From positions 11,606,365-11,670,364 of the forward strand of contig CM028327.1 of the NCBI GenBank assembly GCA_016647705.1: a DNA stretch of 64,000 nt, written 5' to 3'. Source of the DNA: Eucommia ulmoides. Taxonomy: Eukaryota > Streptophyta > Magnoliopsida > Garryales > Eucommiaceae. The notes beneath the pieces are model-generated. The model was given only the letters and a program-made list of their open reading frames with translations. It had not been told where the DNA came from and ran no database searches. Position 1 is the first letter of the stretch. Each line of letters starts with the position of its first letter. Made by a program: the position numbers and the translations under genes. Of the stretch, positions 38,515-47,110 are shown piece by piece.

Positions 38515-39063
38515 TCAGTGCAATTTCCCCTGAATCACAGTCATGATCCCCAGCGCAATCGCCGTCAACTGAAACGTATCGTTGTTCCTCTTCGTCAGCG
38601 GCGACACCACTCCTTCCCTCTCACTGAACCCGTCCTCGCACGTCACCGCCGCATCCATGACGGCGCTCAACTCCACATTCGCGTCGACGAATCGCTTCTC
38701 ATTGTACCTCCTCATCGCCAATTTAACCGAATCAATCCCGTCAGAGTACAACTCCAAGCAATCGCTCAGACACGCCTTCACGTACCGATCGAGTTTCCGA
38801 TGGCGCATCAGCTGTTCGATAAAACATCTGGTGTCGGTGAGGTTGTACCGCGCCAAATGGATCGAGATTGAACAGAGACCGCGGAGGCTCGCGCAACCGC
38901 TCGCCGGCGCCAACTGGAGAGAGGCGGTGCAGTAGTCGGAGACGATTGTGGGGTCGCCGTGAGCGATGGATTTGCAGGTTTGGCGGATGAAGGATTGGGC
39001 GGTTGCTACAGAGAAGAAGAAGAAGAAGAAGAAGAAGAAGGAGTAGTAGCAGTGGGGACTCAT
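38515..39063 (-). CDS. Invertase/pectin methylesterase inhibitor (PMEI) family protein, 182 aa
   Basis: Starts at 39063: an upstream in-frame ATG (39174) lies before the TATA box at 39104-39112 and so cannot be in the transcript. Residues 1-23 form a signal peptide with a nine-Phe run (MSPHCYYSFFF..VATAQS), sending the product to the apoplast. The PMEI fold follows: two Cys in RQTCKSIAHGDPTIVSDYC for the N-terminal hairpin, the SIHLARYN and LSDCLELYSDGID blocks, and Cys in VMDAAVTCEDGF closing the second disulfide with LSDC. Known: family members bind and block pectin methylesterase or invertase; which one cannot be read from sequence. Single exon, usual length, no breaks. Closest neighbour downstream is a Harbinger-like element. 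Confidence 0.88.
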   Translation of the reverse strand: MSPHCYYSFFFFFFFFFSVATAQSFIRQTCKSIAHGDPTIVSDYCTASLQLAPASGCASLRGLCSISIHLARYNLTDTRCFIEQLMRHRKLDRYVKACLSDCLELYSDGIDSVKLAMRRYNEKRFVDANVELSAVMDAAVTCEDGFSEREGVVSPLTKRNNDTFQLTAIALGIMTVIQGKLH

Positions 39064-39103
39064 ACTTTTCTTGTTGGGTTTGTTAAATTTGATGATTCTC
39101 TCG

Positions 39104-39112
39104 CTATTTATA
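39104..39112 (-). promoter_or_regulatory. TATA box of the PMEI gene
   Basis: The - strand reads TATAAATAG, about 41 bp before the ATG at 39063, predicting a very short leader of about 10-20 bases. It settles the choice of start codon. Confidence 0.7.
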
Positions 39113-39381
39113 CTCCCAACTTTTGAGAGGTTTGGTGCACTTCTCAATTCACCCTCTTGGGTAGATTTTGACATACGGGTGATATGTAAAATGCCATGTT
39201 GGTATGTGAAATAACAAGTTTGCCTTTATTCACAATTTATTTACTTGATATTACTTTCCAAAAATAAGTTCAACTAGGATTGTCTATGGACTTTATCCCA
39301 ATAGCGGAGTGAAGTGGCATCCCCTCGTGGCACTCATTTGTACCCCCTCCAATGCAAGGAAAGAATCAAGATAAATATTTG

Positions 39382-40306: not shown

Positions 40307-41447
40307 AGAGGGTGGAGGTATAATTATCAATACCATTCATGGGGATTCACTTTGTTGGCCCAAAAAGCTACTCAAGAGGAGAGTGAATTGAGTAGTTACA
40401 AAAAATTTACAATTAAACACTTAAACACAAATAATTAATTTTGCTTAGTCAATTATTATCTTAATACGCAACGGATATGTATTTAATAATAAGTGCACAC
40501 CCAAACATAATGTAAATAATAAATCAATGCAACACTCAAGAATTTATCCTAATTCAGTCAAGCTAATTTTGCTTACGTCCAGTCCCTTGAACTCCACGGA
40601 GATTCGCAATCTACTAACCTCTTAATTCATTTACCATGTAAGAATCAAACTCTTACAACTCATGATTCTTTTACTGTCTGATAGGTGTAATTTACCTATT
40701 TATTTCCAAACTGAACCTGTTAGTTTTCAAGTATGTTTATTATGTTTTATTACATTTTAATATGTTTTTATATATTTTTGTATAAATCAGGTGTGGGGGG
40801 TGAAAAAGCGTGAAAACGGATTATAAACGTTGCTAATGGTGGCAAAGAATAAGTGAGCCACATCGGATCCTCATAAATATAAGCGTCTAAGATCAGTGGT
40901 GGAATCGCGATTTGAATCTCCAATGGTGACGAATCACAATCGTTGATCCAATCTTGGGTTTCAAGCTTATTCAGATAATCATAGTTGAACTCTCCCAAGC
41001 TCTTTCCGCTCGTTTCCGGCTCCTCACGGTGGCTTTCACTAGGGCTGGCAAAACAGGTATTTACACGATGACACGACACGAGACCGACACGAAATTAGCA
41101 GGTCTAGGTATTGCTTATCAGGTATCGGGTCGTTATCGTGTCAGACCCGATAACCTGATAAGAAATAGTGCAGGTTATCAGGTTGACCTGATAACCCAAT
41201 AGGTTACACGATAAGACACGATAAGAATTTCGTGTATTCAGGTTACACGATAACCTGTGACCCAATAGGTTACACGATAACCTGTTTAATAAATTATTTT
41301 TACACCCCCCAAATTATCAAATATTACAAATTAGTACTTAATATATATAACCACATTTCTCAAACCCTAAGTCCCTAACCCACTTGATAATTCATTTCAT
41401 TTCGCCGTTGCTTGCTCTTGACTGCCGTGACTGCCGTGCTCCCTTCG

Positions 41448-41697
41448 CCACAAGACGACTCCGACGACCGTCGCTGCTCCACAAGACGACTCCGACGACC
41501 GTCGCTGCTCCACAAGACGACGCCGACGACCGTCGTTGCTCCACAAGAGTCACGAGACGACGACCGCCGCTGCTCGTTCCTTCGATTCCAGGTAGATCTG
41601 AGATTCTGAAGTCATATGTTCGATTCCAAGTACATTTGTGATCGATTCCAGGTACATTTGTGATCGATTTCAGGTACATTTGTGATCGATTCCAAAG
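41448..41697 (+). repeat. Two short tandem arrays in the hAT 5' region
   Basis: Three copies of a 33-bp unit CCACAAGACGACTCCGACGA.. (41448-41550), then three or four copies of a 25-bp unit GGTACATTTGTGATCGATTC (41590-41697). Confidence 0.9.
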
Positions 41698-42103
41698 TTG
41701 AAAATACTGAATGCTTACGAAGAGCAACACAGTGATAAACCATAAATAGCACGAAACTGACTAATTGTTCACTACGTTAACTTTGGATATCACTTTTGGG
41801 TTTTGGCCCGGCCTTTCCGGAGATACTGATTTTAGTTTGTTTTTGTTGTTCAAAATGAACTATGGAATTTGGTTGTTATGAAAATTTCACCTTCCTGTGG
41901 TTAAGACTCTTGGGTTCCAATTAATGGTGTAACGGGAAGGATGCAATGGCAGCTCCAGAAATTTGATTGAGAGGGGGCTACAGAAAAAAATAATTTGATT
42001 TAGAGAAATTTATGTATATTATTGAGGGGTTTATAATACATTTTTAGTGTCTTAATTGATTTTTTCATAAATGTTTAGGGCTAGAAGTGTTACTTTTGGA
42101 AAA

Positions 42104-42135
42104 GTGGGGGAGGGGGAGGGGGAGGGGGAGGGGTG
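42104..42135 (+). repeat. (GGGGGA)n tract, G-quadruplex-type
   Basis: Five GGGGG/GGGG runs separated by single A bases, upstream of the captured exon inside the hAT element. Confidence 0.95.
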
Positions 42136-42477
42136 GTTGAATCCACCTTCACTAAAGGGTAGAATTGTAGAGACCCTACTGGAAGGATGATGTCTTCATA
42201 GTTAAACTGCAAAATACAATATTTGCTGCCTTTGGTATTTTTTTTACTCTTATTTGCCTCTCGTGTTTTAACAAACTGATGTCTGCATATTCCCTTCCTG
42301 ATTTACAGCAAGCAAAATTTGCATTTTCGAATGTTTATATTCATTTGATGCATGATTATGCATCTTTCTAGATTTCAGATTTCTTAAAAAGAATTGTTTC
42401 TTAGGGCGAATTAAGTGGAAAAGAAATAAATAGGGTGTTTAATTTACTTTTCCTTTTATCTTTTCTGAAATTTGCAG

Positions 42478-42681
42478 ACAGAGGAAATAGTTAGATTAAA
42501 TGGAATCTACAAAAGGTTACTTTCAAATGCGGGTGTAAAACTATTTGAAGGAGAGGGAAAGATAGTTGGTGCTAATGACGTAGAAGTGACACAACTAGAT
42601 GGCACTAAATTGTGCTATTCGGCAAAACATATCCTTATTGCAACTGGCAGTAGGGCTCAACGTCCACCTATTCCTGGACAG
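42478..42681 (+). pseudogene. Captured exon of cytosolic-type glutathione reductase
   Basis: 68 codons open from [15 protein letters not shown] through [12 protein letters not shown] and [11 protein letters not shown] to [18 protein letters not shown]. Known: this is the segment of plant glutathione reductase (NADPH-dependent reduction of glutathione disulfide) between the FAD-binding and NADPH-binding domains, ending in the ATGSR..(P)IPG motif. The exon keeps a TTTGCAG acceptor and a CAG/GTAGAG donor. No other GR exon is found in the window. It lies wholly inside the hAT element and on the same strand as its transposase. No stop or shift. As a lone exon it cannot make GR; it could be spliced into a transposon transcript. 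Confidence 0.85.
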
Positions 42682-43111
42682 GTAGAGTTTCTGTTTCTGT
42701 TCACATGTGGTACAGTAATCTTTTTCTCTATTTTCATACATGATGCATTCCAATTTCTACTGGAATTTGGCAATTAACTATCCTAACCACATAACCCTTA
42801 TTTGTAGAAGTTCATAGCATGGTTTCTAAGGTGGCGTTTGATTGTTGTTTTTGTTTTTCTCTATTTTCATACAAATTGGAACAGAAACAGAAAAACAGAG
42901 GAAAAAAAGCCTTTCTGTTCTCAATTATAATTCTATTTCTATTTTTCCTTTAGCTTTTTGGAAACCCTTCCAAATTGGAAGGATTTGGATGGGAGGGAGT
43001 GTTTCCTTCCTCATCCTCCTCTTCATTTCATAATGAAACTATTTTCTATTTGGAGAGTTTTTTCTTTTTCTTTTTTTTTTAATTGAGCAAAAGGATATAG
43101 AATTATCGTAA

Positions 43112-43255
43112 GGTCGTGTTTGGTTGTAAGGAATTGGAGCTTCAGAATTGGAATTAGAAATAATTGCATACAAAAAAAAACTTGAGAATTCCCATGCAAT
43201 CATACATTTCTAATTCCAATTCGGAATCTCCAAATCCTTTCAACCAAACACTACC
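43112..43255. mobile_element. Tourist-like MITE inside the hAT element, 144 bp
   Basis: Ends GGTCGTGTTTGGTTG and, inverted, GGTAGTGTTTGGTTG; continuing arms AGGAATTGGAG/AGGATTTGGAG make it nearly a full hairpin. Flanks TAA and AAA. A similar lone end (TAAGGTGGCGTTTGATTG) lies at 42827. Confidence 0.75.
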
Positions 43256-43570
43256 AAAGAAACACATCTTGCACTTCCTGAGAGGCACTTCCTGATAGGG
43301 CTCATGTTCTTGTGCACTGCATGTCGGGGAAAAATAGGTGAGCGTTTTAACAACAAACTGAAGAAATGTTATTTAAAGGACACTTTTAATCAATTTTTAG
43401 ACTAAAGTATAGAACCAACCTGCTATTAGTGTGTTTAGACATAGAACATCGCTAGTCTTTCTACATGATATAACGTTAAATTTCTTTGAATTGGTGAGTG
43501 AAATCCGCATTGGTGATATTTTCTCCACAAATCCGTAATGTTTCTAATTATGTTTTGTAATTACATGTAG

Positions 43571-45953
43571 ATGGATACCATAGATTCAAATAATTTACCA
43601 ATAACGGTGGAAACTGAAAATGATGATGAGTCGCAAGAGGTGGAGGATAATGTCAAAAACAACACAATCGGAAAACGAAAGAGAGTGAAAAGAAGTTCAG
43701 TCTGGAGATTCTTTGTGACAATCAACGAGAAGAATCAAGATGGTAAGCAATTATGTAAGTGTAAGAAATGTGGGAAAACAATGGTCGGTGATAGCCGGTA
43801 TGGTACCGGTAACATGAACCGTCATATTAAATCATGTCCTGGAATCAATTCACAAGATGTAGGACAAATGATATTAGATCACAGTCAAAGCTCACTATCA
43901 ACTAGAAGTCGAAAAATTGATCAAGAGAAATTTCGTGAGTTGTTGATTGCCGCTATTGTCATGCATGATTTACCATTATCGTTTGTTGAGTACAAGGGCA
44001 TACGAGATTTATTATCGTATTTGAATGAGGATGTGGTTCATATCTCTAGAAATACTGCTAAGGCTGATCTTTTCAAAATGCATAAGAGAGAGAAGGTAAA
44101 AGTAAACTACATGTTTGAAAAATGCCCTGGTAGAGTTTGCTTAACCTCTGATATGTGGTCATCCCTCACTACTGATGGCTATGTATGTGTCACAGGGCAT
44201 TTTATTGATAGTGATTGGATTTTACATAAAAGGGTAGTAAGTTTTTGTTGCATGCCACCTCCACATAATGGTGTTTCTATGAGTAAGAAAGCTTATGCTT
44301 TGTTATCTGATTGGGGAATAGATAATAAACTGTTTTCTTTGACTTTGGATAATGCATCATGCAATGATGCGTTTGTGAGAATGTTGACAAGTCAATTGAA
44401 TTTGAGAAACAATCTTTTGTGCAAGGGTGTATTTTTTTCATTTAAGGTGTTGTGCCCACATTCTCAACTTGGTAGTGCAAGATGGTTTAAAAGAAATAAG
44501 TTCATGCATTGAGAAGATTCGTGAGAGTGTGAAATATATTAAAGGGTCACAGGTGAGAAAGCATAAGTTCTTAGAATGTGTGAATTTCTTGTCTTTAAAT
44601 GCTAAGAAAGGTTTACGACAAGATGTTCCTATTCGATGGAATTCAACTTACCTAATGCTTGAAAGTGCATTATATTTTCGTAGTGCATTTTGTCATTTGG
44701 AATTAAGTGACTCTAATTATAAGCATAATCCTTCTGCTTGTGAATGGGAGAAAGGAGAAAAAATTAAGAAGTTCTTGACCCTGTTTTATGATATTACTTG
44801 TCAATTTTCTGGAACGAAGTACCCTACTGCCAATTTGTATTTTCCTTCGGTTTTCATGACCTATTTGACTTTGAGAGAATACAGAAATTCCGATGATGAA
44901 TATATGGTGAATATGGCTATTAAAATGCTTGAGAAATTTGAGAAATATTGGTCGGAGTTTAGTATGATATTGGCTATTGCTGTGATCTTGGATCCTCGAT
45001 ATAAGATTCAATTTGTTGATTTTAGCTACCGAAAACTATATGGGAGTGGTTCAGTTGAGTTCTTGTGTGTCCGAGATAATTTGAATTTGCTTTTTAATGA
45101 ATATATGAAATCTTCTAAGTCTTCGGCCATATCATCCTGTCCCGACAAGTGTAGTGACCAAGGCGACCTCAATGAAAATCTTCTTAGTAAAGAAAATCGA
45201 GATGTATTGAGGGTAAGTTATTAATTTGTATTTTTTCTAAATATTTTTAATTTTTATTGATATCTTAATTTACGTTGATGTTTTTTCTAAATATTTTTAA
45301 TTATAGGAGTTCGATTCTTTTGAAAGTGGTGAATTTGGTTCGGGTGCACAAAAAACTGAATTGGAATTATACTTGGATGAACGAAGAATAGATAGAAATT
45401 CGAAATTGGATATTTTGAAATTTTGGAAAGCGAATCAATTTCGTTATCCAGAACTTTCTTCCATGGCCCGTGATGTGTTGAGCATTCCTGTGTCCACTGT
45501 TGCTTCTGAATCTGCATTTAGTATAAGTGGGAGAGTAATTGATCAACATCGAAGTTCACTCAAGCCTGAAACCGTTGAAGCTTTACTTTGTACCAAAGAT
45601 TGGTTATTTGGGGCTATGGGTAATCTTTTCTTTTTTTGGAGATTATATTTCATTTGAGTTTATATTTGTCTTACAATTATAATTTTATTAGTAATATTTT
45701 TTTTCACAAAAATTTAAATGCAGAAACTGCAAAAGTTCGATTGGACGAACTTACTGAAGACGTTTTGAATTTAGATATCAACAAAGAAGATGCGTCGGTA
45801 ATGTCGCATTCGACTCAATGCTCAAACATTATGCAGGTTTATTGATTTTTTTTCTTGCATTTTGTTACTTATAAAAAATTCATTAATTGTTGAATATTGA
45901 TATTATAAATTGTCTTTCTAAAATATTTTTTTTTTTTTGTTGTACAGGGCTAA
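43571..45953 (+). pseudogene. hAT transposase (BED zinc finger), one frameshift
   Basis: Exons inferred: 43571-45212, 45307-45619, 45724-45837, 45948-45953. BED zinc finger at residues 43-90 (SSVWRFF, C64xxC67, H85, C89); RNase H-like core with D194 in CLTSDMWSS and D260 in LTLDNASCND; RCCAHILNLVVQDGL and RWNSTYLML blocks; C-terminal hAT dimerisation domain YPELSSMARDVLSIPVSTVASESAFS. The start follows a TACATGTAG acceptor-like site, so a 5' intron is likely. Oddity: the frame breaks in a run of seven T at 44432-44438, just before RCCAH; the later exons are open. Known role: cuts and joins the element ends in the nucleus. As read, it would stop at 44512. Confidence 0.88.
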
Positions 45954-46559
45954 GGTGTTTGACAATTGGAAAGTCATTAGTTTATTATGGATCCATTGAC
46001 AATTAATTTAAGATATTCCATATTTGGTGGTGTTATGTGAATGATGTTTGTGTTGGTATTTTTGTTTTTTTTTTTTGTGTGACATTGTAAATGTAATGTT
46101 TGATTTATTTTTTGGTTTGATTTGTTTTGGTTGAAATTGTTTTTTTGTTTTTTGTTTTTTGCTTTTATAATAATTTGTTAAGATGATTTTAAATTAACAG
46201 GTTAGCAGGTCGTTAACGTGTAATGGGTTAGCAGGTCGTTAACATGTAATGGGTAGGTTAATATATAATAGAAACCTATCAGGTCTTATCGTGTCGTGTT
46301 TACCTGATAGGTTTCGTGTCATCGTGTAACACGAAAAATTATCGTGTCGTGTCGTGTCGACACGATAATTTTCGTGTCGTGTTCGTGTTTGGGTAGTCTG
46401 ACACGATAAGCTTATCGTGTCGTGTTCGTGTTTGGGTCTTATCGTGTTTCGTGTTATCGTGTCATGACCTGTTACACGACCTGTTACCTGTTTTGCCAGC
46501 CCTAGCTTTCACTGAATGTGGCTTGTTAATCTCCTAGTTCCATCGTGTCTGACTCGACC

Positions 46560-47110
46560 TCAATAAAATAAATTAGCTAACCGATTTGCGTCTGAAGAGA
46601 TGTTACGGTCATATCGATTTCAAAGCAAATTGTCTCAATATTGTCGAGATGATCTTCATGCTTATTGAGTCGGTCATTTGTTTCCCTCCAAAACGCTTGA
46701 GTCTCCCCAATAAAATCAGCGAATATTTCTTCCATAGCGGGGGAAGACTCAACATATTTCCTTGGTATGTCAATCCATGGCTCCTTAGCGGTGAAAGTAT
46801 CCCTCAAGCTTTGATAACTTGGTGAATAATTCCAATACTGAAAATTGTACTCAGCCATGTCTTCCAATAACTGATAGGCTTCATCCGCAAATAATTGGTC
46901 GAAAGAGGTGGTACCGTTTCCTCTTTCAACCCAATTTCTGGTTGCGGGTAATAACCCATCGAGGAAGTTCAGTAGTTGACACTCCCTTAGGAAACGATGA
47001 TTCGAAAATCGGAACAACAATTTCTTGTATCGATCCCAAGCATCATAAAACGGTTCGGAATCCCATTGAAAAAAAATGCATCAATACTCGTCGATCTAAC
47101 ATCGTCAAGT
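46560..47110 (-). pseudogene. Athila-type gag fragment
   Basis: The - strand reads FYDAWDRYKKLL across the 47050 region, then FLDGLLPATRNWVE and ADEAYQLLEDMAEYNFQYW (147 codons open, 47020-46577), the LLPxTR..EAYELIEEMA-type core typical of Athila gag. The N-terminus is missing: this core begins only about 130 bp after the primer site. It runs into the hAT insertion and has stops beyond 46577. Confidence 0.7.

Follow-up and report, generated by a model that had tools for sequence, protein, structure and literature searches.

Host gene fragments have been reported within several hAT transposons. The grapevine Hatvine-6 hATs share a transposase and terminal inverted repeats (TIRs), and the rest of their sequence, in the passages that characterise the family, often matches genic introns or exons (Benjak et al. 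2008, PMC2528002). For maize, the passages of Du et al. (2011, PMC3260210) on capture give two Ds2 and nine Ds-l4 cases and call gene capture rare in hATs. Among animal Pack-TIRs, the frog hAT-N8_XT capture, a 291-bp piece of a 5' UTR, is described as multicopy with distinct target site duplications (TSDs); multicopy cases are counted there as rare (four, 1.4%), and breakpoint microhomology and template-switch models are brought in (PMC8277862). Pack-TYPE elements are defined as non-autonomous in the description given by Gisby and Catoni (2022, PMC8903248), whose pipeline, as set out in that description, classes any element that matches a transposase as autonomous before genes are searched for. 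The route by which cut-and-paste transposons acquire parts of unlinked genes remains under debate, and a review allows, in its discussion of the models, that an undiscovered capture route may exist (PMC13317346).

The locus described here lies in Eucommia ulmoides, in a window of 64,000 nucleotides (the whole stretch of DNA that was analysed; C3:11606365-11670364, contig CM028327.1 of assembly GCA_016647705.1), and was followed through a genome of 946.7 Mb in 391 contigs. A preliminary description of the window had proposed that a hAT with its own transposase gene had captured a fragment of a glutathione reductase (GR) gene on the same strand, and the donor gene, the capture borders and sister copies of this element have now been located. 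In our judgement it is probable that a transposase-coding hAT took up about 1.04 kb of the GR gene, by what was probably template-switch repair, and then transposed to at least six sites. Like Hatvine-6, to which it is likened by description, this is a transposase-coding hAT with a variable gene-derived internal part; here, the GR pieces and those of a second host gene, encoding eIF2alpha, lie before the transposase ATG. Unlike in Hatvine-6, the donor loci and the junctions are resolved, the same capture is present in six insertions, and two host genes are involved. Transposase-coding hATs with captured exons are already known, on the published characterisation of Hatvine-6, and the present case is an unusually well resolved one.

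The resemblance to the maize Ds2-22 and Ds-l4 elements lies in the hAT ends, the 8-bp duplications and the copied exons and introns, which in maize are described as coming from a gene on another chromosome. Those elements are, by the same description, nonautonomous, whereas the transposase region is retained here. As in the account of frog hAT-N8_XT, hAT-captured host sequence occurs at several sites with distinct TSDs, and as described for Pack-TYPE elements and Pack-hATs, a TIR element with captured coding DNA moves and multiplies; however, all six GR copies keep the transposase region, which sets them apart from the non-autonomous Pack-TYPE class. Since the Pack-TYPE pipeline, in its published outline, sets transposase-bearing elements aside, a case like the present one would go uncounted, which suggests that surveys discarding such elements before the gene search will miss captures of this kind. 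The preliminary description had held that gene capture in plants is reported mostly for MULEs, Helitrons and nonautonomous elements. This is broadly borne out by the rarity in hATs stated in the maize passages, but not for the Hatvine-6 hATs, which are described as coding for transposase. Among the matches listed in the open-licence literature, there was no report of GR capture by a hAT.

The complete GR exon occupies 42478-42681 on the plus strand of the window. It is 204 nt long, or 68 codons, free of stops and in phase 0 at both ends, and it has its own acceptor and donor sites, with TTTGCAG before it and GTAGAG after it. The best of 23 families is glutathione-disulfide reductase (TIGR01424, E 1e-19), and Pfam returns Pyr_redox_2 (E 2.3e-8). 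The first reading, of an open 68-codon GR exon with AG and GT borders, is confirmed. An Azospirillum GR served as the yardstick for locating GR exons; it came from a tblastn search of plasmids. None of the 88 bacterial records found there reached 60% identity, with 53.8% in the best rows. Within the window, this bacterial protein finds the GR exon alone (E 8e-13), two other matches (E 7.6 and 9.9) being noise; flanking GR exons, which the preliminary description had named as a refutation, were looked for in the window and not found. A search of IMG/VR for relatives of the exon gave 29 stretches that fit a pattern, none of them confirmed.

The hAT element itself spans 41040-46504 (5465 bp). Its 20-bp TIRs, at 41040-41059 on the plus strand and 46485-46504 on the minus strand, are perfect, as is the 8-bp TSD GCTTTCAC at 41032-41039 and 46505-46512; both the ends and the duplication had been noted before and were found again. 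With up to three mismatches allowed, the 19-mer end has no occurrence in the window other than these two (0.02 expected). Once joined, the flanks align across the join to each of the 40 scored copies of a repeat, that is, to empty sites, which indicates that the element was inserted into a dispersed repeat and that its borders are right. The target (40900-41039 plus 46513-46659) is a high-copy repeat, with 4188 first-look candidates.

From left to right, the native hAT 5' part (41040-41664, plus strand) consists of subterminal repeats and the presumed 5' leader with the start of a leader intron, and it is common to all 12 GR-less relatives that were fetched whole, at 96.5-98.6%, two of which stop slightly earlier (41642 and 41660). 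Next come an additional 22-bp repeat unit at the left capture junction (41665-41695, plus strand), in which AGT is common with the donor, and the captured GR segment (41696-42727, plus strand). A 20-nt filler (42721-42740, plus strand) leads into native leader-intron sequence (42739-42926, plus strand), followed by an antisense remnant of an eIF2alpha intron (42927-43287, minus strand) and the native 3' part (43294-46504, plus strand). The 3' part is common to the GR-less relatives as well, nine of the 12 aligning to the last base, L047 to 46475, and L054 and L055 to 46394.

In a DNA search of the genome with the exon, all seven candidates were scored and all match, six of them at 100% and one at 99%. 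Six of the seven matches lie in hAT copies; the other, L014, lies in a gene and has additional GR exons to either side. L014 (C3:38271976-38272179) is on the same contig as the window, and its match is at 100%; the window exon thus has the same DNA sequence as one exon of a multi-exon GR gene at another locus. The bacterial GR protein finds eight GR pieces at L014, at E 0.008 or better, and a protein search with the exon adds one match, on C14, at 64% over residues 3-30 only. Judged by these alignments, L014 is the donor GR gene. Aligning it to the window, as had been proposed for finding the donor and the capture borders, gives a segment larger than the exon alone: 41696-42727 corresponds to L014:4207-5226 at 98.5%, with a 12-bp difference in repeat number, and otherwise there are only three short matches of 22-36 nt. 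Between the 10 kb around L014 and the window element, the captured segment and one 22-nt match are all that is common.

When the whole segment is searched against the genome, 14 matches are returned (14 of 14 candidates scored), comprising the same seven and seven partial intronic ones, which lie within query positions 8-427 and do not reach the exon. A stretch at C6:5446445-5446685 matches the intron part of the GR segment (query 8-259) at 88% without the exon, and could be an older copy or a repeat. In the GR intron, a GGGGGA run (window 42100-42160, and in L014) varies in repeat number between the donor and the copies.

Sister copies with the same exon, which the preliminary description had proposed to look for, are present as five other hAT insertions: L009 (C51), L010 (C8), L011 and L012 (both C3), and L013 (C10). 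The window copy and L009-L013 have distinct perfect TSDs (GCTTTCAC, TTCAATAT, TTTTTAAT, CTCGAACT, ATGTCTAT and AGGCCAAG). With six insertions and six different duplications, the captured GR piece has been mobilised together with the element. The perfect 8-bp duplication typical of hATs is found in the window copy, in the five other GR copies and in 11 of the 12 GR-less relatives, the exception being L049. A search with the 5' 656 bases of the element gives 40 scored family members among 1194 first-look candidates. Six align over all 656 bases and are the GR copies, and the other 34 stop at or before base 625; because the genome search scores only the best candidates, six is a lower bound. Twelve of these 34 were fetched whole and 22 were not, and in none of the 12 was there a GR exon or an alignment of at least 100 bp to the GR segment. 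Eleven of them are 4446-4535 bp long, and L053 is 5523 bp.

Over the transposase half, divergence is 0.23-0.49% among the GR copies and 0.55-1.40% between them and the GR-less relatives that were fetched. In a tree built on the transposase region, branches within the group are poorly supported; L053, without GR, stands beside L013 at 0.735. Substitutions relative to the donor over the captured segment number three in the window copy, two in L009, three each in L010, L011 and L012, and five in L013. Two of them are common to all six copies, there are length changes besides, and the exon is identical to that of the donor in five of the six. So few differences between copies and donor, and among the copies, indicate that capture and spread were recent; the copies are young, at 2-5 bases from the donor over about 1 kb, length changes aside.

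The transposase gene in the window retains its domains, zf-BED (E 1.7e-4), hAT-like_RNase-H (E 5.7e-29) and Dimer_Tnp_hAT (E 2e-34), in three separate reading frames. In the predicted gene model, the exon that starts with the ATG and holds the zf-BED domain and the hAT-like RNase-H fold would span 43571-45212, the exon for the hAT C-terminal dimerisation domain 45307-45619, and a further exon 45724-45836, all on the plus strand and the latter two bounded by inferred splice sites; a last short exon would start at 45948 or 45949. An alternative model was replaced; its second coding exon of 312 nt led to false stops close to codon 666. A frameshift lies in the T-run at 44432-44438, where the window has seven T and 17 other copies have six, and it leads to a stop at codon 314. 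The first reading of this transposase as nearly intact therefore fits the gene and its domains but not the window frame, which is broken by one base. In L010, the second coding exon is one base longer, with a stop at codon 565.

The transposase region is retained in all six GR copies, with these one-base frameshifts in two. In the other four (L009, L011, L012 and L013), the transposase frame is open through the exons of the inferred-splice model; L011 and L013 reach the natural stop, and L012 is open through three exons. By the same model, early stops occur in six of the 12 GR-less relatives (L047, L049, L052, L054, L055 and L056). Strings around the two presumed D residues and the E are exact in 17, 17 and 12 of 18 copies, respectively. 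The E string is present in four of the six GR copies and missing in the window and L010, where it lies behind the frameshift, and in four relatives. The D, D and E residues in these strings are the presumed catalytic acidic residues of the hAT transposase. Across 17 copies (the window was omitted for its length, and codons with more than one change were skipped), the first coding exon has 30 synonymous, 57 nonsynonymous and three stop variants, with a pN/pS of 0.46; for five GR copies, the small numbers of four synonymous and five nonsynonymous variants give 0.31. The GR-bearing lineage is, judged by its open frames and young copies, recently amplified and transposase-coding.

The left capture junction is of an identical type in all six copies: native element, the 22-bp repeat unit, then L014:4207, joined at CCAAAGT/TTGAGT with an overlap of AGT. 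The last full repeat unit has variants that set the window copy apart from the other five. Directly after this junction, native element 628-820 is missing in every case. The right junction, by comparison, comes in three types. In type A (the window, L009 and L010), donor sequence runs to 5226 and meets, with a 7-bp overlap, the 20-nt filler, which is an exact copy of native sequence (936-955 of the L045 element); after the filler, the sequence resumes in the element at 821, overlapping by 2 bp, and the same string is found in L009 and L010. In type B (L011 and L012), the donor runs to 5249 and is followed by the element from 487, with a 1-bp overlap, so that the GR piece is flanked on either side by a copy of a 141-bp element stretch (487-627). 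Further along, element 686 is joined to 1362 with a GAA overlap, 687-1361 being deleted, and both joins are present in both copies. In type C (L013), the donor runs to about 5205 and is followed by 93 bp of eIF2alpha sequence as in L053 and then by native element from 1127. Overlaps of 1-3 bp are frequent by chance.

The eIF2alpha sequence belongs to the second captured gene. The GR-less relative L053 (C8:11202471-11209071) contains about 1.2 kb of it in antisense, together with a transposase frame that is open by the same gene model, and two antisense exons match Pfam EIF_2_alpha (E 1.9e-13 and 1.2e-5). A locus on C12, L058, has the same segment at 96% relative to L053, with further exon-like frames on both sides that are recognised as eIF2alpha by eye, and is likely to be the donor. 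L014 and L058 both have further exons outside the captured part (those of L058 by eye), the pattern of transduplication. Five of five candidates match the 93-bp piece of L013, namely L053, the C12 locus, two places on C7 and L013 itself. All three type A copies, the window included, have 361 bp in common with L053 (42927-43287), and L058 aligns to window 42943-43287 (about 345 bp) at 97.7%. That 42927-43287 might be native element sequence was ruled out, since L053 and the eIF2alpha locus hold the same stretch. A MITE-like 50-bp inverted repeat at 43112-43255 is also present in the eIF2alpha locus and was carried along with the capture. The eIF2alpha intron piece is found in three of the six GR copies, and the 93 bp of L013 include exon sequence; in L011 and L012, no eIF2alpha sequence appears in the matches of the 93-bp piece or in the comparisons with L053.

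On C7, at 2521154-2529128, inverted right halves of hATs (L059, L060 and L061) hold eIF2alpha sequence in both orientations about 30 bp apart. There are hAT ends at both outer sides, with no matching 8-bp duplication. A transcript of this inverted pair, if one is made, could form a long hairpin directed at eIF2alpha.

The junctions are most likely explained by a lineage that took up pieces of two host genes through template-switch repair. The receiving element probably had the eIF2alpha piece already, or may have gained it later. While the broken element was being repaired, its strand would have ended at about 627 and jumped to the GR gene by way of a 3-bp match. Part of an intron, the whole exon and the start of the next intron would then have been copied into the presumed leader intron, upstream of the transposase ATG, and a return to the element at 487 would have left 141 bp of element duplicated around the GR piece. 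The resulting ancestor would read element 1-627, GR sequence of 1043 bp, element 487-1008, the eIF2alpha piece and element 1127 to the end. Ordinary cut-and-paste transposition of the hAT type would have brought this GR-bearing element to at least six sites. Meanwhile, repair deletions inside it, leaving small overlaps or filler, would have turned the ancestral right border into three forms. The predicted ancestor, with GR and the whole eIF2alpha piece, is absent among the copies examined, and the model is read from the three derived forms. What the locus offers is that both donors are at hand, the GR junctions are resolved to single bases, there are relatives without the captured piece, and a set of three derived borders can be compared.

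The three right junctions could also have come about if one GR-bearing left half was joined separately to different right halves; under either course, the junctions would be products of repair. A different origin is offered by the Pack-CACTA model, in which two neighbouring hATs flanking the GR exon would have lost their facing ends and moved as a hybrid, taking along the host DNA enclosed by them; the two-neighbour hybrid is among the models described in the review (PMC13317346), and local hopping is sought as support for it in the Pack-TYPE description (PMC8903248). Two overlapping end-truncated copies would be expected to leave the 141-bp duplication of 487-627 seen in L011 and L012, and this duplication alone is compatible with both template switching and a hybrid. 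However, at the donor locus the captured part still lies between other GR exons, with no hAT remains in the 10 kb around it, and a departing hybrid would remove the exon from the donor unless another allele survived. The short overlaps and the templated 20-nt filler of type A also fit repair better. Taken together, a donor without hAT remains, the filler and the flanking duplication favour template-switch repair, and origin as a hybrid is unlikely.

For the present state of the exon, the simplest reading is that it is a passenger in a spreading element. It is improbable that the exon is in use, either as a cassette in the transposase leader or through small RNAs that dampen GR, and that such use drives the spread. 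In favour of use, the exon retains both splice sites that it has in the donor gene, shares its strand with the transposase and has phase 0/0; the transposase ATG at 43571 comes directly after an AG, and owing to the phase, inclusion of the exon would read in frame into the transposase. An in-frame reading has a chance of about 1/3, however. Upstream CAG/GT sites lie at about 552 and 612 of the element, with a third at 634 in the window; with the site at about 612, there is an in-frame ATG 12 codons ahead in all six copies, and with the other sites there is none. Exon identity as a sign of selection was rejected, because the captured introns are almost equally identical, and youth alone explains it in copies that differ from the donor at so few bases (2-5 per about 1 kb). 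The GR piece is also not needed for spread, since 34 of the 40 scored family members are without it. A chimeric transcript or a regulatory siRNA against GR, as raised in the preliminary description, is possible. It is similarly improbable that the hAT is a serial exon collector, whose leader intron takes splice-ready host exons before AG/ATG and fuses them in frame by cassette inclusion; if it were, the fusion could affect the output of transposase or shield the element from silencing.

An assembly artefact or collapsed repeats would be in keeping with the one-base frameshifts in the window and L010, which could be sequencing errors, but is very hard to reconcile with six copies on four contigs (C3, C8, C10 and C51), with different TSDs and three border types. 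That the GR exon arrived in a separate later nested insertion, or belongs to a local GR gene hit by hAT pieces, is rejected with near certainty on the junctions and the single GR exon: the window element is longer than 11 of the 12 relatives (5465 bp compared with 4446-4535 bp), but the borders of the GR piece join native element sequence and show no foreign element ends or duplication, native 628-820 is replaced and not interrupted, the left junction is identical at six sites with different TSDs, and no second GR exon was located in the window.

Close to the right end of the element, a minus-strand open reading frame at 46577-47080 appears gag-like by eye, and Pfam assigns it to no family. 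To the left of the element, a PMEI-type gene (plant invertase/pectin methylesterase inhibitor) is encoded at 38515-39225 on the minus strand (Pfam E 2.3e-26).
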